Virus record (IMG/VR): IMGVR_UViG_3300009108_000019
Coordinates: 1 to 43,207 of that record
Origin: a virus
Reading direction: 5' to 3' (one strand)
Length of the DNA: 43,207 nucleotides
Shown here: positions 5,690 through 43,207 of the stretch, piece after piece
Numbering within the stretch: position 1 is the first letter of the stretch
Layout: each line of letters opens with the position of its first letter
Made by a program: the position numbers and the translations under genes
Notes under the pieces: generated by a model
Seen by the model: only the letters and a program-made list of their open reading frames with translations
Told to the model about the DNA's origin: nothing
The model's database searches: none

Positions 5690-5882
5690 AATAGAAAAAA
5701 TTATAGAAGAATTACCTGAATTATTAGTTAAACACGCATACCAAAAATTAAAATCAGGACAAGAGCTAACTGCTTCAGAAATGAAAGTATGTTTAGAAGT
5801 TTGTAAAACTTATAGCTCTGAAAAATTAGGTGCAAAACCTGATAATATTCTTGAGAAAGTACCTTTTGACACAAATGGATAA
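5595..5882 (+). CDS. terS: Small terminase subunit (DNA maturase A-like)
   Basis: A 95-residue protein directly before the large terminase, which it overlaps by 8 bases (ATGGATAA). The N-terminus is charged and disordered; residues 35-80 form a helical region (ELPELLVKHAYQKLKSGQEL, then ASEMKVCLEVCKTY) of the type that oligomerises and recognises DNA in T7 gp18-like subunits. It is near T7 gp18's length (89 residues). GGAG at 5582-5585 gives 9 bases of spacing to this start. Identification rests on size, fold pattern and position. Confidence 0.75.
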   Translation: MLNQSPKKENGDTQKVQTKVSQKNDIEHKGVRIEKIIEELPELLVKHAYQKLKSGQELTASEMKVCLEVCKTYSSEKLGAKPDNILEKVPFDTNG

Positions 5883-7515
5883 TCGCTTAAAAAATTTTAA
5901 GAATTTTTTGTATTTATGTTGGAAGTTTCTAAACCTACCTAACCCAACTCCCATACAATATGATATAGCAGACTATCTACAGTCAAATGAACGTAGATTA
6001 GTTATAGAAGCCTTCAGAGGCGTTGGTAAATCTTGGATTACTTCAGCATTTGTCTGTCACCAACTTTTACTAAATCCTCAAAGGAATATATTGGTAGTTT
6101 CAGCTTCTAAAAATAGAGCTGATGACTTTAGTACCTTTACTCAAAGACTAATCAATGAAATGCCAATATTACAACATCTAATTCCTAGAGATGACCAAAG
6201 ACATTCTAAAATTAGTTTTGATGTAGCTCCTGCTACCGCTTCTCACGCACCTAGTGTGAAATCTATGGGTATTACAGGACAGCTTACAGGTTCTCGTGCA
6301 GATTTAATTATTGCCGATGACGTAGAGTCAGCAAATAACTCACAGACTCAGTTAATGAGAGATAGATTAAGTGAAACTGTGAAAGAATTTGATGCGATTA
6401 TTAAACCCGATGTGGGTCGTATCATATTCTTAGGAACACCTCAAACTGAAATGAGTTTATATAACACATTAGAGGAAAGAGGTTATAAGACAAAAATATG
6501 GACAGCGTTATATCCAACTAAAGAACAAACGATTGGTTATGGTAGTAAACTGTCTACTATTATTTCTAATATTACAGATAAAGAAGGTGAACCTACAGAC
6601 CCTCAAAGATTTGATGGTATAGATTTATTAGAGCGTTTGTCTTCCTATGGACGTTCAGGATTTAACTTACAGTTTATGTTAGACACTACAATGTCTGACG
6701 CTAATAGATACCCTTTAAAGCTCAATGACTTAATTGTAGCTTCAGGTTGTACTACTTGGAAAAAAGCTCCTGCTCAAATTCAGTGGGCTTCAGGTACTCA
6801 ACAATTAAAAGGGGTAGACCCTGAGATACCTAATGTAGGATTAAAGGGTGATTATTATGTTGCTCCTTTACACTTATCTGAAGAATATACAGATTTTGAA
6901 GGGGTGGCTATGTCTATAGACCCTGCGGGTCGGGGAGAAGACAAAACAGCGTATGCGGTGCTTAAAATGCTTCACGGAGTGCTTTATTTGACCGACATAG
7001 GAGCTTTAGATGGTGGTTACTCAGATGCTACCTTAGAAGAGCTTTCAGCTATAGCTAAACGTAACAAAGTGAATAACGTGGTTATTGAATCTAACTTTGG
7101 TGATGGTATGGCTACAGCGTTATTAAAGCCTGTTATGGCTAGAATACACCCTTGCCAAATTGAAGAGGTAAGGCATAATATACAAAAAGAGAAAAGAATT
7201 ATAGATACCTTAGAGCCTATTATGAATACTCATAGGCTAGTGGTAGACGAGAATACAATAAAAGAAGACTTCAAGTTAGAACCTAATCATCAACTGTTTA
7301 GGCAAATGACTAGAATAACTAGAGATAAAGGTGCGTTAAGACACGATGACCAAATTGACGCATTAGCTATTGCGGCTAATTATTGGGTTGAAAGAATGGA
7401 CAGAGACCAAACTTTATCTTATCAACAACATAAAGACGAACTAATCAATAAAGACTTAGAAAGGTTTATGGAGCACACAGTAGGTATACAACCTAAACGG
7501 GATAGGTTCATTTAA
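5875..7515 (+). CDS. terL: Large terminase subunit (T7 gp19-like)
   Basis: A 546-residue DNA-packaging motor. The ATPase domain has Walker A (AFRGVGKS, residues 46-53), Walker B (LIIADD, 144-149, with E151) and the coupling motif LGTPQ (186-190). The nuclease domain has SIDPAGRGEDKTAY (D349), VVIESNFGDG (E405) and HDDQIDALA (D491, D492, D495), the acidic metal cluster of RNase H-fold terminases. It cuts concatemers and pumps DNA into the prohead through the portal. The start at 5875 overlaps terS; an in-frame ATG at 5830 would add 15 residues inside terS and lacks support. The stop codon overlaps a phage promoter. Confidence 0.95.
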   Translation: MDNRLKNFKNFLYLCWKFLNLPNPTPIQYDIADYLQSNERRLVIEAFRGVGKSWITSAFVCHQLLLNPQRNILVVSASKNRADDFSTFTQRLINEMPILQHLIPRDDQRHSKISFDVAPATASHAPSVKSMGITGQLTGSRADLIIADDVESANNSQTQLMRDRLSETVKEFDAIIKPDVGRIIFLGTPQTEMSLYNTLEERGYKTKIWTALYPTKEQTIGYGSKLSTIISNITDKEGEPTDPQRFDGIDLLERLSSYGRSGFNLQFMLDTTMSDANRYPLKLNDLIVASGCTTWKKAPAQIQWASGTQQLKGVDPEIPNVGLKGDYYVAPLHLSEEYTDFEGVAMSIDPAGRGEDKTAYAVLKMLHGVLYLTDIGALDGGYSDATLEELSAIAKRNKVNNVVIESNFGDGMATALLKPVMARIHPCQIEEVRHNIQKEKRIIDTLEPIMNTHRLVVDENTIKEDFKLEPNHQLFRQMTRITRDKGALRHDDQIDALAIAANYWVERMDRDQTLSYQQHKDELINKDLERFMEHTVGIQPKRDRFI

Positions 7516-7581: not shown

Positions 7582-8196
7582 ATGCAGATAGAATTATGGA
7601 GAAATGTGAAAATTGTGGACACGAGTGCCACTGCGACAAAGAGACTCATCAAGATAATTGTTGTGGGTCTTGTAACTGCGATACTTCTAGGGATAACGAT
7701 AGGACATACGAAACAAATGGATAATACTGAAATAGAATATTTAAAAAAGAGAATTAAAAAACACGAAGGTTATAGAGAATTACCTTATAATCTTGAATAT
7801 AAGACAACAGATGGAAAAGTAGTAAAAGAAAACTTCTCTACAGCAGGTTTTGGTCACGTTATTCAAGCAGGAGAAGTAGAACCTGAAGGTGGTTACACTA
7901 AGGAGTATTGGGAAGGTGTCTTTGAGAAAGACTTTAAGAACGCTCACGATGGAGCTTTAAAACTGTTAGGAGACAGTAATGTCCACCCTACAGCAGTAGG
8001 TATAGTAACAGAAATGATATACCAAATGGGATATAATGGTGTCTCTAAGTTTACAAATACCTTAAAATTAATTAAAGATGGTAGATACCAAGACGCTAGT
8101 ATAGAAATGTTGGACTCAAAGTGGGCTCAACAGACTGATGAAAGAGCTATAGACTTGTCTCAGATAATGAAAAGCCTAGAAGCTAATATTCAGTAG
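7582..8196 (+). CDS. Endolysin, GH24 lysozyme with possible signal-anchor-release N-terminus
   Basis: The T4-lysozyme-type domain starts near residue 46: KKHEGYRELPY carries the catalytic Glu, and FSTAGFGH the catalytic Thr region. The later MIYQMGYNGVSKF and LDSKWAQQT segments also match the family. From ATG 7582 the protein is 204 residues, with a membrane segment at 22-41 (LIKIIVVGLVTAILLGITIG) that would make it a SAR endolysin, exported by Sec and later released from the membrane. From the internal ATG 7717 it is 159 residues, close to T4 lysozyme's 164, and would need a holin. Neither start has a strong ribosome site. The anchor region also encodes the cysteine-rich micro-protein at 7596 in another frame. 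It cleaves peptidoglycan glycan strands. Confidence 0.85.
   Translation: MQIELWRNVKIVDTSATATKRLIKIIVVGLVTAILLGITIGHTKQMDNTEIEYLKKRIKKHEGYRELPYNLEYKTTDGKVVKENFSTAGFGHVIQAGEVEPEGGYTKEYWEGVFEKDFKNAHDGALKLLGDSNVHPTAVGIVTEMIYQMGYNGVSKFTNTLKLIKDGRYQDASIEMLDSKWAQQTDERAIDLSQIMKSLEANIQ
7596..7724 (+). CDS. 42-residue Cys/His-rich micro-protein overlapping the endolysin
   Basis: ATG 7596 opens a 42-residue frame with eight Cys and three His: MEKCENCGHECHCDKETHQ, then DNCCGSCNCD. The CxxCGHxCHC and CCGSCNC spacing looks like a metal-binding knuckle and is hard to explain by chance in DNA this AT-rich. Small proteins with NCGHxCHC occur in marine phages as I recall. The stop overlaps the internal endolysin ATG 7717 as ATGGATAA, the same 8-base overlap seen at the terS/terL junction, which suggests translational coupling. 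Function unknown. Confidence 0.55.
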   Translation: MEKCENCGHECHCDKETHQDNCCGSCNCDTSRDNDRTYETNG

Positions 8197-12069: not shown

Positions 12070-12090
12070 TAAAGTGCCCGTATGTAGAAG
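12070..12090 (+). promoter_or_regulatory. Putative phage promoter of the RNA polymerase gene
   Basis: TAAAGTGCCCGTATGTAGAA then G, matching AAAGTRCCCGTNTTAGAAG at 17 of 19 positions. It lies 44 bases before the polymerase ATG and would let the polymerase drive its own gene. Confidence 0.75.
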
Positions 12091-12133
12091 CCTAAAACAT
12101 AAACACAATAACTTAAAGGAGTTTATACAATAT

Positions 12134-14593
12134 ATGGATAGTAAACAGACATTACTAGAAATAATGCCTAAATACTCAGACCAATTAAAGCACGAAAAAG
12201 AAATGGCTGAGCTAGGTAAACACAGAACTAACAAAAGGCGTATCTCACACGTTGAACGTGAGGAAGAATCTGTTACGAGCTATGGTAAAGTTATGGTAGC
12301 TAACACAATCAGACCTTTAGCCAATGCGATAGCTGAGTATATACAAGAAACATCTAAGAAGACTATAGGAAAACCACCTATTGCTTTTGTTAAGATGTGC
12401 GAAGTCTCACCTGAAATATTAGCCCTAATCACGGGTAAACACATAATCAATACAATTACACAATACAAACCTTTAACAGCTACTTGTATTAGTCTTGGCG
12501 GTAAAGTTGAGACTGAGATAGCTTTAAAGAACTTTAAGTTTCTCAATCCTGAGCTTTATGAAGTTGTGAAACAAGACTTAGACAAAAGGTCTTGGAACTA
12601 TACTTATAAAAGAAGAAAATTAAGAGAGAGTGCTAAGCGTGGAGTAGTTAAATGGGAAGAGTGGACTACACCTGAGAAATTACACGTTGGATTAAAATTA
12701 GTTGAGATGTTAATTATCTCTACGGGTCTAATTGAAATTGGTACTGAGACAATCAATCATAAAAAAGCTAAGATTATCAAACAAACACATAAGACTAGAG
12801 AATGGATTAAAAATAGAAATAGCTTTAATGAGCTATTAAACCCTGAATACTTACCAACAGTTTTACAACCTAAGATGTGGAGCTCAGTTGTTGGTGGTGG
12901 ATATTGGACTAAGGAATTACCTGAGTTAGATTTGGTTAAACAAAAAAATAAACAATTTAAGAGAGAGCTTGAAAACTTTGATATGCCTGAAGTTTATAGT
13001 GCAATCAATATAATGCAAAGTACACCTTTTAAAATTAATAAGTTTATTTTAAATGTTATGCAAACAGCTTGGGATAATGGAGACGCTATTGGTGGTATGC
13101 CACCTAATAGAAATTTAGATATACCAAACAAGCCTCACGACATAGAGACTAATAAAGATTCAAGAAAAGATTGGAAGAGAAGAGCTGTTATAGCTCATAC
13201 TGAAAATGCTCGTATGTTTTCTAAAAGATTATTGTATGCTAAAATAATTTGGTTAGCTCAAAAGTTTAAAGACTATGCGACATTATTTTATCCATTACAA
13301 TTTGATTTTAGAGGAAGAGCTTATTGTGTCCCTGCATTTTTAAATTATCAAAGTATTGGTGGAGCTAAGGCTTTGCTTTTATTTTCTAATGGAAAAGAAA
13401 TAACTCCTGAGAATAGAGGAGAGTTTTGGTTAGCCGTACACGGAGCTAATATGTATGGGAATGATAAAGTATCTTTAGAAGATAGAGTTAAATGGGTTAA
13501 TGATAATGAACAGTGGATAGTTAATTGTGCTCAAGACCCTTTTAGACATAGAGAATGGGAAGACGCTTCTAATGCTTTTCAATTCTTAGCGTGGTGTGAT
13601 GAGTGGAGAAGATACCAAGCTAGAGGAATAAACGAAAAGTTTATATCTCATTTACCTGTTAATGTTGATGGGAGTTGTAATGGTCTTCAATTATATTCTT
13701 TAATGTTAAGAGATAGTGTTGCGGGTAAGTTAGTTAATTTACTTCCGTCAGATACACCTCAAGACATTTATCAATTAGTTGCTAATGCTGTTAATGAAAA
13801 GTTAAAAGTACACGCTTCAGAAGATAGACCTTATGCTCAGCAGTGGTTAGATTATGGAGTTAAGCGTTCTACTACTAAACGAAGTATTATGACAATTTGT
13901 TATGGCTCAACAAGATACTCTTGTACGGACTTTGTAATAGAAGATTTAACCAAGAGACAAGATAAAGGCGAACACCACCCTTTTGTTAATGATTTATTTA
14001 GACCTGCTTCTTATTTGGCTAGTGTCATTTGGGATAGCATAGGGGATAATTTAAAATCAGCTAGAGTGGGTATGAAGTATCTTCAGGAGATAGCTAAGAT
14101 TGTTTCAAAAGAACAATTACCTATACACTGGGTCACACCAGTAGGATTTCCAGTTTATCAATCCTATCCTGAAATGAAGTCTAAAAGAGTTAAAGCTATG
14201 CTTATGGGAGAAGTTATAAAACCCCGTATCAATGCTGAGACTGATAAGACAGATAAATTGCGTATGTCAAATGGAGTAGCTCCTAACGTAGTTCACTCCG
14301 TAGATTCCGCAGGTATGATTAAGACTGTTAATTTTGCTCATAAAAACGGAGTTAAGAATTTCTGTAATGTGCACGACAGCTTTGGTACAACTGCGGGTGA
14401 TGTAGAAATGTTAAATAAAAGTATAAGAGAAGCCTTTATTGATATGTTTTCTAATCACGACATACTAGAGAAGTTCAGGCAAGATGTTGAGAAACAATTA
14501 CCTGATAAATTGAAGGCTAAATTACCTGAAGTCCCTCAAAAAGGTGATTTAGATATAAATAAACTGAGGGAAAGTAAGTTCTTTTTTGCGTAA
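12134..14593 (+). CDS. Single-subunit RNA polymerase (T7 gp1-like)
   Basis: An 819-residue polymerase, slightly shorter than T7's 883. Motif A: NVDGSCNGLQ with the catalytic Asp at residue 512. Motif B: TKRSIMTICYGS with Lys 582 and Tyr 590, eight apart as K631/Y639 in T7. Motif C: VHDSFG with Asp 748. The C-terminus ends KFFFA, like T7's FAFA. It transcribes middle and late genes from the phage promoters found here. I chose ATG 12134, preceded by AAAGGAG at 12 bases; the longer frame begins with GTG 12074 inside the promoter and would be absent from transcripts made there. Positioned downstream of a strong terminator. Confidence 0.96.
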   Translation: MDSKQTLLEIMPKYSDQLKHEKEMAELGKHRTNKRRISHVEREEESVTSYGKVMVANTIRPLANAIAEYIQETSKKTIGKPPIAFVKMCEVSPEILALITGKHIINTITQYKPLTATCISLGGKVETEIALKNFKFLNPELYEVVKQDLDKRSWNYTYKRRKLRESAKRGVVKWEEWTTPEKLHVGLKLVEMLIISTGLIEIGTETINHKKAKIIKQTHKTREWIKNRNSFNELLNPEYLPTVLQPKMWSSVVGGGYWTKELPELDLVKQKNKQFKRELENFDMPEVYSAINIMQSTPFKINKFILNVMQTAWDNGDAIGGMPPNRNLDIPNKPHDIETNKDSRKDWKRRAVIAHTENARMFSKRLLYAKIIWLAQKFKDYATLFYPLQFDFRGRAYCVPAFLNYQSIGGAKALLLFSNGKEITPENRGEFWLAVHGANMYGNDKVSLEDRVKWVNDNEQWIVNCAQDPFRHREWEDASNAFQFLAWCDEWRRYQARGINEKFISHLPVNVDGSCNGLQLYSLMLRDSVAGKLVNLLPSDTPQDIYQLVANAVNEKLKVHASEDRPYAQQWLDYGVKRSTTKRSIMTICYGSTRYSCTDFVIEDLTKRQDKGEHHPFVNDLFRPASYLASVIWDSIGDNLKSARVGMKYLQEIAKIVSKEQLPIHWVTPVGFPVYQSYPEMKSKRVKAMLMGEVIKPRINAETDKTDKLRMSNGVAPNVVHSVDSAGMIKTVNFAHKNGVKNFCNVHDSFGTTAGDVEMLNKSIREAFIDMFSNHDILEKFRQDVEKQLPDKLKAKLPEVPQKGDLDINKLRESKFFFA

Positions 14594-14640: not shown

Positions 14641-15258
14641 ATGGCGAAGAATAATAACGTCAAGGTAGTATCACCAGTTGGAGTTTCGCAATATGCGTGG
14701 CTAACGACACCTGATACTCGTTTTGATGAGACTGGTCATTATAAGACTAATCTTATTATAAACGCTAAAGAAGCTCAGTCATTGAAAGCTCAAATTGATG
14801 CTGAGATAAAGAAAAGTGTTGCTCTTGCTAAAGAGAAGGCTAAAGGAAAAGCTATTAAAGAAGCTCCTCGTCCTTATGATGATGAAATGATTGATGGTAA
14901 AGCATCAGGAAATGTCATTTTTAAATTTAAGACGAAGGCAAAAATTATAGCTAAAGACGGAAAGGTTATACCTAATAGAGTTGCATTATTTGATAGTGCA
15001 GGGAAACCTATGATTGACGCTAATGTTTGGTCAGGCAGTGAAATGAAAGTATCAGCAGAATTGATACCTTATTACACAGCTATGGCAGGAGCAGGTGTGT
15101 CAATGAGACTAAGAGCAGTTCAAGTAACTAAGTTAGTTGAAGGTGGCTCTAGTAATGCTAAAGGTTATGGCTTTGAAAAAGTTAAAGATGGCTATGAACA
15201 ACCTGAAGCAGTAGCAGTAGAAGAAAATGTATCGCAGGAAACTTCGGCTGACTTCTAA
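14641..15258 (+). CDS. Single-stranded DNA-binding protein (T7 gp2.5-like)
   Basis: A 205-residue protein. The N-terminal ~175 residues form an OB-type domain (VVSPVGVSQYAWLTTPDTRF, later VSAELIPYYTAMAGAGVSMR and LRAVQVTKLVEGG), as in the gp2.5/DUF2815 family. The C-terminal tail is acidic and ends in ETSADF; an acidic tail with terminal Phe is what T7 gp2.5 uses to contact polymerase and helicase-primase. It protects single strands during replication and recombination. AGAGGAGACAAA precedes the ATG. Overlaps endonuclease I by 32 bases. Confidence 0.85.
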   Translation: MAKNNNVKVVSPVGVSQYAWLTTPDTRFDETGHYKTNLIINAKEAQSLKAQIDAEIKKSVALAKEKAKGKAIKEAPRPYDDEMIDGKASGNVIFKFKTKAKIIAKDGKVIPNRVALFDSAGKPMIDANVWSGSEMKVSAELIPYYTAMAGAGVSMRLRAVQVTKLVEGGSSNAKGYGFEKVKDGYEQPEAVAVEENVSQETSADF

Positions 15259-15634
15259 ACAAGTCGGAATACGATACGGATTTCGTTCAGGCTTAGAAGA
15301 GTCTGTAGCGAAAGAGCTAAAAGATAATCGTGTAGTGTATGAATTTGAAAAGACTAAGTTGAAATATACTAAGCCTCAAAAGATTCATACCTATACGCCT
15401 GATTTTCATTTAACGAAGAAAAAAATTTTTATAGAAACAAAAGGATTATTTACTACTCAAGATAGACAGAAAATGAAATTGATTAGGGAGCAATACCCTA
15501 ATTTAGATATTAGATTTATATTTTCTAATTCAAGAGCTAGGATAAGTAAGAAATCAAAAACAACTTATGGAATGTGGTGCGAAAGATACGGATATGAATA
15601 TGCCGATAAACACGTTCCGAAGGATTGGCTATGA
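15227..15634 (+). CDS. Endonuclease I, Holliday-junction resolvase (T7 gp3-like)
   Basis: A 135-residue PD-(D/E)XK nuclease: RYGFRSGLEESVAKEL (Glu 24), YTPDFHL (Asp 59) and FIETKG (Glu 70, Lys 72), matching T7 endonuclease I residues E20, D55, E65 and K67. T7's protein has 149 residues. It cuts branched DNA before packaging and helps degrade host DNA. The start is inside the SSB gene in another frame, as is common for coupled phage genes. Its stop overlaps the next gene (ATGA). Confidence 0.9.
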   Translation: MYRRKLRLTSKQVGIRYGFRSGLEESVAKELKDNRVVYEFEKTKLKYTKPQKIHTYTPDFHLTKKKIFIETKGLFTTQDRQKMKLIREQYPNLDIRFIFSNSRARISKKSKTTYGMWCERYGYEYADKHVPKDWL

Positions 15635-15798
15635 TAGGTAGAGTAATTTATAAACAAGAGAGTGTGCAATACTATTCAGAATCAAAAGATGAATGGATTG
15701 ATGTAGATACTATGGACGAACAACATTGTCGTAATGCTCTTAAAAAAATTATTAGAAAGTATGGAGTGATAAATGAGCAATATAAGAAAAGAAACTAA
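15631..15798 (+). CDS. Small hypothetical protein, 55 residues
   Basis: MIGRVIYKQESVQYYSESKD, then EWIDVDTMDEQHCRNALKKI and a basic end. Start overlaps the endonuclease stop; its last 26 bases overlap the lysozyme-like gene. Soluble, mixed charge; no family recognised. Tight coupling on both sides supports it as a real gene. Confidence 0.55.
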   Translation: MIGRVIYKQESVQYYSESKDEWIDVDTMDEQHCRNALKKIIRKYGVINEQYKKRN

Positions 15799-16198
15799 AT
15801 ATATTGTTATTCATTCTTCAGAAACTAATCCGACACAGAATTTTGACGTAAAGGATATTGACATACAGCACAGAAAAGAAGGTTTGTTCTCTTGTGCATT
15901 TCACAAAGTTATTACTAGAAAAGGTGAAGTGCAAGATGGAAGAGACATACAAATCGCAGGTGCTCACGTTGATAGTAATGTTAAATTGTCAAATAAAAAT
16001 TCTATTGGTATTTGTCTAATCGGTGGACAGACAATAGATGGTAAGCCCGATTGTAATTTTACTTTTAAGCAATACGAAGCTCTTTTAGAGTTAATTCGTG
16101 ATTTAAAAAAAGATTATAAAGAGGTTCAGATAGTTGGTCATAGAGATATGACTGACTCCTTATCTCCGCATTTTAACGTAAGTGAATTGCTGAGATAG
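15773..16198 (+). CDS. T7-lysozyme-like protein (gp3.5 family), probably not catalytic
   Basis: A 141-residue protein of the N-acetylmuramoyl-L-alanine amidase type 2 fold, alignable with T7 lysozyme throughout: IVIHSSETNPTQNF, NSIGICLIGG and the C-terminal VGHRDM. T7 lysozyme uses Zn ligands H17, H122, C130 and residues Y46 and K128. Here H14 and H123 remain, but the Tyr is Phe 43 (CAFHK), and in TDSLSPHFN the Lys and the ligand Cys are replaced, the Cys position by Ser 131 in my alignment by eye. Amidase activity is therefore doubtful. T7's protein also binds and inhibits the phage polymerase; that role may be what is kept. A separate GH24 endolysin exists. Confidence 0.85.
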   Translation: MSNIRKETKYIVIHSSETNPTQNFDVKDIDIQHRKEGLFSCAFHKVITRKGEVQDGRDIQIAGAHVDSNVKLSNKNSIGICLIGGQTIDGKPDCNFTFKQYEALLELIRDLKKDYKEVQIVGHRDMTDSLSPHFNVSELLR

Positions 16199-16306: not shown

Positions 16307-17899
16307 ATGGAAAAACAGGAAAGCAACTTTTTATATCACACGCCCTGCAATAATTGCGGTTCGTCAGACGCTAATTCAGTTTATGATGATGGACACACTT
16401 ATTGTTTCTCGTGTAACACAACAACAAGAGGAAATGATTTGACACAACCAAAAGAAAAAACAAGTAGTGAATTTATTAGTGGCACAGCAGTACCTTTAAT
16501 TAAAAGAAAAATAGATTTAGATACTGCAAGAAAATTTAATTATCAAATGGGAGCTTGGTTTGGAAGACCAGTTCAGATAGCTAATTACTATGATAAAGAT
16601 AAAAATTTAGTTGCACAAAAATTAAGAAACCCTGACAAAACTTTTCAATGGTTAGGAGACGCAAGACAGTCAGGTTTATTTGGACAACACCTTTGGAGAG
16701 ATAAAGGTAAGATGATAATAATTACAGAAGGCGAGATAGATTGCCTTAGCGTTTCTCATATCAACCAAAATAAATTTCCAGTAGTAAGTGTAAAGAGTGG
16801 AGCTCAAGGAGCTAAGAAAGATATTCAAAGAGAGCTAGAGTGGCTTGAAGGATTTGATTCAGTAGTGTTAATGTTTGACCAAGATGAACAAGGTAAACAA
16901 GGAGCTATTGAATGTGCTAAATTATTCTCACCTAATAAAGCTAAGATATGTAGTCTTCCTTTAAAAGATGCTAATGAAATGTTAGTTGCAGGTAAGACTA
17001 GAGAATTAATAGATTGTTTATGGTCTAGTAAAGCATACAGACCTGATGGAATAGTTTTAGGTGCAGACCTATGGAATGAAATTAAAAAAGAAGATACTTA
17101 TGTAACAGTTCCTTATCCTTTTGAGTGTTTAAATACTAAGACACACGGATTGAGAAAAGGAGAATTAGTTACTGTTACAGCAGGTACAGGAATTGGTAAA
17201 AGTTCTTTTTGTAGACACGTTGCATTACATTTATTAGAAAAAGATTTTAGCGTAGGTTATATTGCACTAGAAGAAAGTGTTAAACGTAGTGCTCTTGGAA
17301 TTATGGGAGTGTCTATAAAGAAACCTTTACATTTAACACGAGAAGGGACAGATGAGAAGGAACTCAATAAAACTTTTAAAGCAACAGTTGGTAACGGGAA
17401 ATTTTATCTCTACAATCATTTTGGTAGCACTCTTGCTGATAATCTATTATCAAAAATAAGATATTTAGCTAAGGCTTGTGGTGTAGACTTTGTAATATTA
17501 GACCATTTACATATGGCTCTATCATCTATTGGTGATGAACATACTAATGATGAAAGAAAACTAATTGATTATACTGTTTCTAAACTAAGAACATTAGTGG
17601 AAGAGACTGGTATAGGATTAATATTAGTTAGTCATTTAAGAAGGTCTGAGGGAGACAAAGGCTTTGAAGATGGTAAGAGTGTAGGATTAAATGCTCTTAG
17701 AGGTAGTCAAAGTATTGCTCAACTATCCGATATAATAATTGGAATGAATAGAAATTTACAAGCTGATAATAATATTGCTCAAGTAAATATATTAAAGAAT
17801 AGATTTTCAGGTGAAACTGGAAAGGCTTGTAACCTTTATTATGATTTAAAGACTGGCTGTTTAAGTGAAGTTAAAGGAGAATTGTCTGATGAGTTTTGA
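16307..17899 (+). CDS. Primase-helicase (T7 gp4-like)
   Basis: A 530-residue bifunctional replication enzyme. Zinc-binding domain: C14, C17, C33, C36 (CNNCG ... CFSC). TOPRIM-type primase part: IIITEGEIDCLS near 140 and VVLMFDQDEQGKQGA near 185. Helicase part of the DnaB/RecA type: Walker A AGTGIGKSS at 292-300, VILDHLHM near 398, ILVSHLRR near 442 and NALRGSQSIAQLSD near 465. T7 gp4A has 566 residues. It unwinds DNA at the fork and makes RNA primers for the polymerase encoded downstream. The ATG lies after the structured leader; no strong AGGAG is seen, which fits regulated initiation. Confidence 0.95.
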   Translation: MEKQESNFLYHTPCNNCGSSDANSVYDDGHTYCFSCNTTTRGNDLTQPKEKTSSEFISGTAVPLIKRKIDLDTARKFNYQMGAWFGRPVQIANYYDKDKNLVAQKLRNPDKTFQWLGDARQSGLFGQHLWRDKGKMIIITEGEIDCLSVSHINQNKFPVVSVKSGAQGAKKDIQRELEWLEGFDSVVLMFDQDEQGKQGAIECAKLFSPNKAKICSLPLKDANEMLVAGKTRELIDCLWSSKAYRPDGIVLGADLWNEIKKEDTYVTVPYPFECLNTKTHGLRKGELVTVTAGTGIGKSSFCRHVALHLLEKDFSVGYIALEESVKRSALGIMGVSIKKPLHLTREGTDEKELNKTFKATVGNGKFYLYNHFGSTLADNLLSKIRYLAKACGVDFVILDHLHMALSSIGDEHTNDERKLIDYTVSKLRTLVEETGIGLILVSHLRRSEGDKGFEDGKSVGLNALRGSQSIAQLSDIIIGMNRNLQADNNIAQVNILKNRFSGETGKACNLYYDLKTGCLSEVKGELSDEF

Positions 17900-21587: not shown

Positions 21588-21856
21588 AACAACCACCTCA
21601 CTATTTTAGATTTAAGATAGAACCTATTACCTTTATTATGCAGAATGATATTCCGTATGCTGAAGGTAATGCTATTAAATATATTTGTCGTTGGAGATGG
21701 AAACACAAAACTAAAGAAGCTCAGATTGAAGACCTAAAGAAAGCTAAACAATACATTGATTTAATATTAGAACACGAGGAGAATAAATCTGATGAACAAG
21801 TAAAACTTAAACTAGGGAATGACCCTTCGGGATTAAGAAAGACTGGTGTATTATAA
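21572..21856 (+). CDS. DUF3310 family protein
   Basis: A 94-residue protein with the family pattern: HYFRFKIEPITFIMQNDIPY, then EGNAIKYICRWRWK and DLKKAKQYIDLIL. DUF3310 (SaV-like) proteins are common in phages and sometimes called nucleotide-kinase-like, though activity is unproven. Overlaps the exonuclease by 16 bases. In this context a link with nucleotide metabolism is plausible. Confidence 0.8.
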   Translation: MADKVKQPPHYFRFKIEPITFIMQNDIPYAEGNAIKYICRWRWKHKTKEAQIEDLKKAKQYIDLILEHEENKSDEQVKLKLGNDPSGLRKTGVL

Positions 21857-22227
21857 TGTTGAAGCACAACCATATAATCATTAGGGCTGAAGTAAAAAAG
21901 CCACCGAAGGACATTCGCTTCGCAAGAAAATGGATAAGAAAATTTATTAAAGCAATAGATATGAAGATGTTAGGGCAACCTAATTCTCATTATGTCTATG
22001 ATAAAGGGAATAGAGGACTTACTTGTCTTGCTATTCTTAGTACCTCACACATCGCTTTGCATACTTGGGACGAAGTGTCTCCTGCATTAATGCAATTAGA
22101 TGTTTATTCGTGTAGTGATTTAGATAAGAAAATTGTTTTTAAACAGATAGAACAATTTGAACCAAAGGAGATAAATTATGTTACGATTGACAGGGATAAA
22201 GCTATTCATATTAGCAGTTCTTCTTAA
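21856..22227 (+). CDS. speD: S-adenosylmethionine decarboxylase-like protein
   Basis: A 123-residue SpeD-like protein. HIIIRAEV at the N-terminus and LSTSHIALHTWDE, then MQLDVYSCSD, fit the prokaryotic AdoMet decarboxylase proenzyme, which cuts itself before a Ser to form a pyruvoyl group. By alignment with the Thermotoga enzyme (S63, H68, C83), S64, H69 and C86 are the counterparts. The residue before the Ser is Thr 63 where the cleavage site is usually Glu-Ser. The enzyme makes the propylamine donor for spermidine; polyamines may help DNA condensation. Overlaps the next gene by 50 bases; no speE is seen. Confidence 0.75.
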   Translation: MLKHNHIIIRAEVKKPPKDIRFARKWIRKFIKAIDMKMLGQPNSHYVYDKGNRGLTCLAILSTSHIALHTWDEVSPALMQLDVYSCSDLDKKIVFKQIEQFEPKEINYVTIDRDKAIHISSSS

Positions 22228-29786: not shown

Positions 29787-29854
29787 CTACTTATAATAAC
29801 TTCAAGATATGCCTAGTGGGTATCTTGATTAACTCGCCTAAGAAAGGGGGAAAT

Positions 29855-30250
29855 ATGACACTAGACTTAACACCATTCCGAGCTTTTTCGGTAGGTTTTG
29901 ATGACCTATTTGATGAGCTTAGAAGTTTTAAGACAGTTGGTTATCCACCATACAATATTGAAAAAATAAAAGATGGTGAATATAACATTTCAATGGCTGT
30001 TGCAGGGTTTTCAAAAGATGACCTTACAATTTCTGTTAAAGAAAATGTCTTAAAAGTAAAAGGAAAGAAAGAAAGTAAAGAGAAAGATTATCTTTACAAA
30101 GGTATTGGTGAAAGGTCTTTTGAACAATCATTTAAACTAGCTGAATTTACAGAAGTAAGTGAAGTTAAGTTAGAAGATGGTGTTCTAAATGTTTCTTTGA
30201 TTCAGAATTTACCTGAAGATAAGAAAGAAAAGACAATCAAAATATCTTAA
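29855..30250 (+). CDS. Small heat-shock protein Hsp20 (IbpA-like)
   Basis: A 131-residue alpha-crystallin-domain chaperone. PPYNIEKIKDGEYNISMAVA, GFSKDDLTISVKENVLKVKG and the A-x-x-x-n-G-V-L element (VKLEDGVLNVSL) are diagnostic; IGERSFEQSFKL matches the crystallin strand before the end. ATG 29855 follows AAAGGGGGAAAT; a GTG at 29816 in frame lacks a ribosome site. It holds unfolded proteins, perhaps helping capsid or tail folding. Hsp20 is known in T4-like marine phages and less usual in T7-like ones. It sits between two near-identical hairpins, like an inserted cassette. Confidence 0.9.
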   Translation: MTLDLTPFRAFSVGFDDLFDELRSFKTVGYPPYNIEKIKDGEYNISMAVAGFSKDDLTISVKENVLKVKGKKESKEKDYLYKGIGERSFEQSFKLAEFTEVSEVKLEDGVLNVSLIQNLPEDKKEKTIKIS

Positions 30251-42429: not shown

Positions 42430-43207
42430 ATGGCTAGTACATATTTATCAAGAACTTTTGGTACACCTACAAACGCATCTAAATTTACAATTTCAGTATG
42501 GGTTAAAAGAAGTGCATTAGGTGGGAGTTGGAAAACAATTCTTTCATCTTATGTAAGTGGTACAAGATATACCAATTTTTCATTTAATGGTTCAGACCAA
42601 TTTGCATGGCATATATTAGATAGTAGCGAAGTATCTAAATTATATAGTAATGCAAAATATAGAGATGTTAATGGTTGGTATCATTTAGTTTTTAATTGGG
42701 ATAGTACACAAGCAACTGCTTCCGATAGAACTAAACTGTGGGTTAATGGAGAACAAATAACTTCATGGAATACACAAACTAATTCAGCACAAAATACTAA
42801 TTATGAAATGAATACTGCTGTTACTCATTATATTGGAGCAGAAAAAGGAAATACAGGTGGAAGTATTGGAAATTATTTTGATGGAAGTATGTCACATTTT
42901 CATTTTTCAGATGGTTATGTTTATCCTGCTTCAACATTTGGAGAAACAGATGCAACGACAGGAGAATGGAAAATTAAAACTTCTCCAACTTTCACATTAG
43001 GAAATAATGGATTTACAATTTTAAAAGATGGAAACACAATTACAGACCAATCAGCTAATTCTAATAATTGGACTTTAGGTGCAGGTACTCTTACGAATAC
43101 AGAGGATTGTCCAAGTGATGTTTTTGCTACAATGAATGTTTTAGATAATCAAAACCAAGCTTCAACATTTACAATGGGTAATACTAAACTTGAATGGAAT
43201 ACAAATA
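42430..43207 (+). CDS. LamG-SPRY tail protein, N-terminal part (continues at base 1)
   Basis: ATG 42430 follows AAGGAGAATAAATAATA. The frame runs to the contig end and continues through the overlap into 120-676 (444 residues in all). Residues 1-200 are a LamG/concanavalin-A-like sandwich: KFTISVWVKRSALGGSWKTI, GWYHLVFNWDSTQATASDRT, KLWVNGEQITSW and HYIGAEKG, then FDGSMSHFHFSDGYVYPAS. Such domains bind sugars. The SPRY domain follows. Together they make a two-lectin-like appendage right after the tail fibre; probably a receptor-binding or fibre-tip protein. Listed as partial because of the arbitrary cut. Confidence 0.88.
   Translation, partial: MASTYLSRTFGTPTNASKFTISVWVKRSALGGSWKTILSSYVSGTRYTNFSFNGSDQFAWHILDSSEVSKLYSNAKYRDVNGWYHLVFNWDSTQATASDRTKLWVNGEQITSWNTQTNSAQNTNYEMNTAVTHYIGAEKGNTGGSIGNYFDGSMSHFHFSDGYVYPASTFGETDATTGEWKIKTSPTFTLGNNGFTILKDGNTITDQSANSNNWTLGAGTLTNTEDCPSDVFATMNVLDNQNQASTFTMGNTKLEWNTN
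43089..43207. repeat. Terminal direct repeat, right copy
   Basis: Identical to bases 1-119. See the left copy: the assembly is circular and the last 119 bases are redundant. Confidence 0.9.

Follow-up and report, generated by a model that had tools for sequence, protein, structure and literature searches.

Lysozyme of bacteriophage T7 (gp3.5) is the classic example of a single phage protein that carries out two unrelated functions, which so far have been separated by laboratory mutants. The Y46F variant is reported to abolish its amidase (PMC8124813) and K128T to lower it (PMC4573324), and both are described as keeping, or nearly keeping, inhibition of the phage RNA polymerase (RNAP; PMC4573324, citing Cheng 1994). 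Zinc is likewise reported to be required for amidase activity and dispensable for RNAP inhibition (PMC5445346), and T7-like lysozymes of Pseudomonas phages are reported to repress their own RNAPs (PMC10138996). Because the amidase and RNAP inhibition are separable in the T7 mutants, control of RNAP is a reasonable candidate for the job of a gp3.5 that has lost its enzymatic activity. Our search of the open-licence PMC literature, at the level of titles and abstract openings, found no description of inactive lysozymes in pelagiphages.

The stretch of DNA analyzed here (the window) is IMG/VR virus record IMGVR_UViG_3300009108_000019, 43,207 nucleotides in length. Its two ends share an identical 119-base direct repeat (positions 1–119 and 43089–43207), so the window is probably a complete phage genome of about 43.1 kb. 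It is a Pelagivirus-like SAR11 podophage, and the annotated phages closest to it infect Pelagibacter and belong to the genus Pelagivirus. The gp3.5 gene occupies the same place as in T7 itself, following the genes for RNAP, single-stranded DNA-binding protein and endonuclease I and preceding the primase gene (Table 1); the position between endonuclease I and primase is common to the gp3.5 genes of the annotated relatives. Elsewhere, the window encodes homologues of S-adenosylmethionine decarboxylase (21856–22227; PF02675, 5.4e-15) and of a small heat-shock protein (29816–30250; HSP20, 4.1e-19).

Table 1. Genes and gp3.5 active-site codons of the window discussed in the text
Feature	Position	Strand	Basis or remark
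Terminase large subunit, position marker for the lysin slot	5830..7515	+	
Second lysin, T4-lysozyme/GH24-like, 204 aa, soon after terminase large subunit	7582..8196	+	PHROGs
Single-subunit RNA polymerase, candidate partner	12074..14593	+	ATG start probably at 12134
Single-stranded DNA-binding protein, T7 gp2.5-like	14641..15258	+	
Endonuclease I, T7 gp3-like	15227..15634	+	
T7 gp3.5 (lysozyme/amidase) homologue, 141 aa, amidase fold, predicted catalytically dead	15773..16198	+	homology and predicted fold
His14 codon = T7 His17, zinc ligand, retained	15812..15814	+	alignment
Phe43 codon = T7 Tyr46, lost	15899..15901	+	alignment
His123 codon = T7 His122, zinc ligand, retained in the window	16139..16141	+	alignment
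Ser129 codon = T7 Lys128, lost	16157..16159	+	by spacing
Ser131 codon = T7 Cys130, zinc ligand, lost	16163..16165	+	alignment
His133 codon, two residues past the lost Cys, candidate substitute ligand	16169..16171	+	alignment
Primase/helicase, T7 gp4-like	16307..17899	+	

A first-pass annotation of the window, made from the sequence alone, had recognized this gene as a T7-lysozyme homologue with apparent loss of catalytic residues and a retained fold. The reading frame was recovered at the same coordinates, on the plus strand, and its product matches the T7 lysozyme structures 1LBA (phmmer, 1.2e-20) and 1ARO chain L (1.3e-20) as well as PHROG 822 amidase (4e-42) and Amidase_2 (2.1e-13); no second Amidase_2 site was found in the window genome. 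Both histidine zinc ligands are in place, as are the conserved Arg8, Thr11, Gly40, Asn73, Gly83-Gly84, Asn94 and Leu103. In contrast to T7 lysozyme, the window protein lacks Tyr46, Lys128, Cys130 and the N-terminal tail, has a shorter C-terminus and is accompanied by a separate lysin gene. The predicted fold is confident (AlphaFold2 pLDDT 85.3, pTM 0.82, with residues 64–68 below 50) and T7-lysozyme-like (TM 0.86 to 1LBA and 0.88 to 1ARO_L), T7 lysozyme being the closest structural match (Z 21.9, rmsd 1.4 over 134 residues). A single-sequence prediction for an HTVC019P-type protein reached a pLDDT of only 39 and was set aside.

Each of the residue changes proposed at first pass was borne out (T7 catalytic residues are numbered as in PMC4573324). 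The His-His-Cys zinc triad of active amidases is broken at its cysteine, which is Ser131 in the window protein, and the catalytic Tyr46 and Lys128 are replaced by Phe43 and Ser129. MAFFT places a gap at the Lys128 position because other groups carry insertions there; we assign Ser129 to it by spacing, as the stretch from His122 to Cys130 spans 9 residues in T7 and in the window protein alike. The same spacing, shared by the window's group and T7, rules out that Cys130 is simply misaligned. The corresponding Cys-to-Ser mutant of the peptidoglycan recognition protein (PGRP) PGRP-LB is reported to contain no zinc (PMC8124813). The amidase activity of the window gp3.5 has very probably been lost, judging from these residues, and the protein would hold no zinc.

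The lesions extend across the genus and are not a quirk of one genome. Our sample of 261 homologues (256 full length, the remaining 5 cut or partial matches) was drawn from viral contigs and named phages; it is not a census because the contigs were chosen by similarity to four lysozymes, those of the window, HTVC019P, HTVC109P and HTVC011P. The complete set of five catalytic residues is present in none of the 172 Pelagivirus-type homologues, as opposed to all 84 outside that group, which comprise 82 Stopavirus-type sequences (Chosvirus KM23C739 counted among them), T7 and the Roseobacter phage CRP-113. After addition of 60 more T7-type contigs and removal of duplicates, none of the 86 distinct Pelagivirus-type sequences has the full set, which all 110 others possess (Stopavirus-type 59/59, T7-type 50/50, other 1/1); even the zinc triad survives in just 7 of the 86. 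The HTVC168P lysozyme is without Lys128 but retains Tyr46 and the zinc triad. The Stopavirus-type proteins of the SAR11 phages HTVC011P, HTVC025P and HTVC041P share with the window gp3.5 the host genus, the gene position and the missing N-terminal tail, but their five catalytic residues are intact and no other lysin was found in the five records examined.

Two patterns of damage can be distinguished among the Pelagivirus-type sequences. In the window's group (n = 87), Lys128 is lost in all members, Tyr46 in 86 and Cys130 in 71, with His122 lost in a single one; the HTVC109P group (n = 11) has lost Lys, Tyr and Cys throughout and His122 in 6/11, HTVC109P itself having Tyr at the latter position. 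The HTVC019P group (n = 74), which resembles the window's in its degenerate active site, other lysin and synteny, differs in that His122 is replaced by Cys and T7 His68 by Ile in 74/74, while Lys128 and Cys130 are mostly kept (Cys130 in 72/74); Tyr46 is Phe in 69/74. Losses affect four of five catalytic columns versus 6 of 19 other columns conserved elsewhere (p 0.075), so their concentration on catalytic columns is suggestive only. Lys38, Asp92 and Arg123 (T7 numbering) are invariant in Pelagivirus only, with Lys111 at 99%, and the other groups carry different residues at these positions; the four residues may possibly form a new functional surface.

A gp3.5 tree that excluded the four catalytic columns groups the 41 Pelagivirus rows in a single clade (100/100), whose stem is long (1.41). 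Positions 46, 122 and 130 each require a minimum of three changes, and position 128, where an alignment gap was also scored as loss, a minimum of four; with some weak forks inside the Pelagivirus clade and long branches joining at its base, these counts of independent losses are minima on one tree. Neither lesion pattern simply yields the other, since in the HTVC019P group His122 is gone and Lys128 and Cys130 mostly remain, and roughly the opposite holds for the other group. The median pairwise dN/dS is 0.151 in the window's group, 0.176 in the HTVC019P group and 0.150 in the intact Stopavirus type; among Cys-lost members alone it is 0.146. A pseudogene or a sequencing error was ruled out by this dN/dS of about 0.15, together with identical or nearly identical reading frames in many separate contigs.

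The separate GH24 endolysin reported at first pass was also recovered, soon after the terminase gene (Table 1), and by eye its product has a hydrophobic N-terminal segment. Among 34 records searched (26 Pelagivirus-type and 8 others), a probable separate lysin was found in 25 of the 26 Pelagivirus records; because the genomes are related, the association of such a lysin with a dead gp3.5 may go back to one or two events and should not be counted as 34 independent cases. A GH24 query matched 22/26, in G001 and G003 only within the N-terminal segment, and covered the catalytic part in 20/26. Four of the 26 (HTVC031P, G001, G005 and G006) encode a pesticin-type muramidase and G003 an endolysin-like protein (PHROG 873); in G011 (sequence L154), the single Pelagivirus record without a lysin, neither terminase nor lysin was found. 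The lysin gene overlaps or directly follows the terminase gene in all 12 of the 25 lysin-bearing records in which both genes are visible (HTVC031P, G001, G003, G005, G006, HTVC019P, HTVC168P, HTVC201P, Jormungand, HTVC048P, HTVC121P and S35-C6). This slot appears to exchange catalytic domains (GH24, pesticin-type, endolysin-like) and can retain the N-terminal hydrophobic segment: the window and G001 lysins share 86% identity over residues 1–49, although their catalytic parts differ.

The GH24 query matched none of the eight comparison records (HTVC011P, HTVC025P, HTVC041P, S30-C28, the record of L199, KM23C739, CRP-113 and T7), and neither the pesticin nor the PF00959 model had a match in the first seven. 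In the five Stopavirus-type records, no more than a small open reading frame was seen past the terminase. Since PF00959 misses even the GH24-bearing record G002, the absence of a lysin in Stopavirus rests on several searches combined with reading of the post-terminase frames. PHROG 13211 matched 0/10 records, a set that included no record known to be GH24-positive, and the result is uninformative.

Because the active site looks broken and lysis seems to have passed to another gene, gp3.5 has probably been kept for a second job. That the amidase-dead protein is retained for some other task is well supported, and control of RNAP is a plausible one; given loss of the amidase, we put the chance that it is kept for this purpose at a little over one half. 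Our main reading, with a probability of roughly 0.5, is that an amidase-dead gp3.5 is under selection, most likely for binding and slowing RNAP, and that the separate muramidase lyses the cell. Under this scheme the gp3.5 homologue would have given up cell-wall hydrolysis, the muramidase would do the lytic work, and selection would keep gp3.5 for a non-lytic role: it would bind the phage's own RNAP, through a surface that may have diverged from that of T7, slow it, and assist the transition to replication and late-gene expression. More tentatively, and with the odds somewhat against it, two Pelagivirus lineages may have disabled the amidase by different residues beside a muramidase, leaving a dedicated regulator of a diverged RNAP with a re-modelled interface.

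The first-pass annotation had gone further and suggested that gp3.5 may be a pure polymerase regulator. Its premises of amidase loss with the fold kept and of a separate lysin are supported, and they extend genus-wide, but the regulator itself stays a proposal. Against it count the poor conservation of T7-type contact positions, the missing N-terminal tail and the phage Unn EXVC019P, which has the RNAP but no gp3.5. At the RNAP positions that contact lysozyme in T7, as given in one paper (PMC5445346), mean column identity is 0.54 in 12 Pelagivirus RNAPs versus 0.75 overall (a proportion of 0.0036 of random sets scored this low), compared to 0.84 versus 0.75 in 17 T7-like RNAPs; conserved T7-type contact positions are thus not found in Pelagivirus. 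The RNAP hairpin bearing contacts 720–721 is missing in Pelagivirus and also in Stopavirus. On the other side of the interface, T7 lysozyme residues 1–3, one of which is reported to affect RNAP inhibition (PMC10138996), have no counterpart in any aligned Pelagivirus or Stopavirus sequence. RNAP is annotated as two open reading frames in HTVC041P, KM23C739 and HTVC025P and as one in HTVC011P; the HTVC041P pieces match N-terminal and catalytic RNAP families separately, and in HTVC025P two small frames lie between the pieces. The two-frame annotation could be either a real split or a sequencing frameshift.

Divergence of lysozyme is correlated with that of RNAP across 34 genomes (partial r 0.645, the strongest of ten gene pairs), and this pair is also the strongest within the window's group alone (0.689, 21 genomes). 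It is outside the five strongest pairs in 13 HTVC019P-type genomes, and the coupling is only 0.261 in the intact Stopavirus type. When lysozymes were swapped among close genomes, these local shuffles gave 0.60–0.61, and 3 to 8.5% of them reached the observed value. Mirror-tree support for an RNAP partnership, which looked strong at first, is thus mostly explained by deep tree structure. Block-wise correlations point to lysozyme residues 1–49 and the RNAP C-terminus, but we do not lean on them because faster blocks may carry more signal.

The alternatives to RNAP control, all of them unlikely, are taken here in descending order of probability. The amidase-dead protein might have been kept as a peptidoglycan binder that, for example, positions or times the muramidase, in the manner of the non-catalytic PGRPs of animal immunity (PGRP-SA, PGRP-SD and others). 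These proteins share the superfamily fold, PGRPs being among the next matches of the predicted structure after T7 lysozyme; non-amidase PGRPs are reported to carry the same Cys-to-Ser change at the zinc site (PMC4573324), and inactive PGRP-LB mutants to bind peptidoglycan still (PMC8124813). However, the tyrosine that is lost here is described as invariant even in non-catalytic PGRPs (PMC8124813), and the equivalent pocket residue is Phe43 in the window protein and Phe in 166 of the 172 Pelagivirus-type sequences. The pocket of the HTVC019P group is altered further by the His68-to-Ile replacement, and inspection of the 141-aa window protein by eye revealed no signal peptide or membrane segment. 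We therefore regard this possibility as improbable.

A somewhat lower probability attaches to decay, in which gp3.5 became unnecessary once a second lysin had been acquired and is now on its way out. The extreme of such a process could be Unn EXVC019P, in which a profile that recovers gp3.5 in four control records finds none and whose RNAP is 48% identical to that of the window over the stretch compared. No lysin was seen right after the Unn terminase, and a GH24 search, run without a positive control, was empty; a pesticin domain lies within a long protein among the Unn structural genes. The long stem of the Pelagivirus clade also fits with decay, as does the constraint on gp3.5 relative to its neighbours: of five genes compared, lysozyme is under the strongest constraint in Stopavirus, whereas in both Pelagivirus groups RNAP, endonuclease and primase are all more constrained than it, which amounts to some relaxation. 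Against decay, the dN/dS near 0.15 and the complete frames in 256/261 homologues indicate continuing selection.

Slightly less probable again, in our estimate, is a re-tooled metal enzyme, in which His133 replaces Cys130 as the third zinc ligand and some hydrolase activity is left. His133 corresponds to T7 position 132, and in the collected sample His occurs there in 81/84 sequences that lack Cys130 and in 0/88 that have it. The third ligand is reported to be different in AmpD as well, where it is Asp (PMC6361986), and single mutants of Ts2631 to retain 3–17% activity (PMC4573324). Yet Y46F alone, as noted above, reportedly abolishes the T7 amidase. Moreover, the association of His133 with the missing Cys comprises two independent comparisons, too few origins to establish compensation, and the HTVC109P type and sequence L026 have this His but have lost the ligand His122.

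Least likely is a replication-operon role unrelated to RNAP, such as contact with DNA or the replisome, for which we know of no precedent: gp3.5 adjoins the primase gene, the Pelagivirus-only residues named above suggest a new constrained surface, and lysozyme and primase show a partial r of 0.446, but this coupling equals the local-shuffle null (0.444).

Database labels such as "lysozyme" or "amidase" on Pelagivirus gp3.5 genes are probably wrong as to activity. The gp3.5 proteins of SAR11 phages form a natural mutant set, intact in the Stopavirus type, disabled in two patterns in Pelagivirus and deleted in Unn, within phages of one host group, the most abundant bacteria of the ocean. With intact, disabled and deleted states occurring naturally in that one host group, the role of gp3.5 besides lysis becomes testable.
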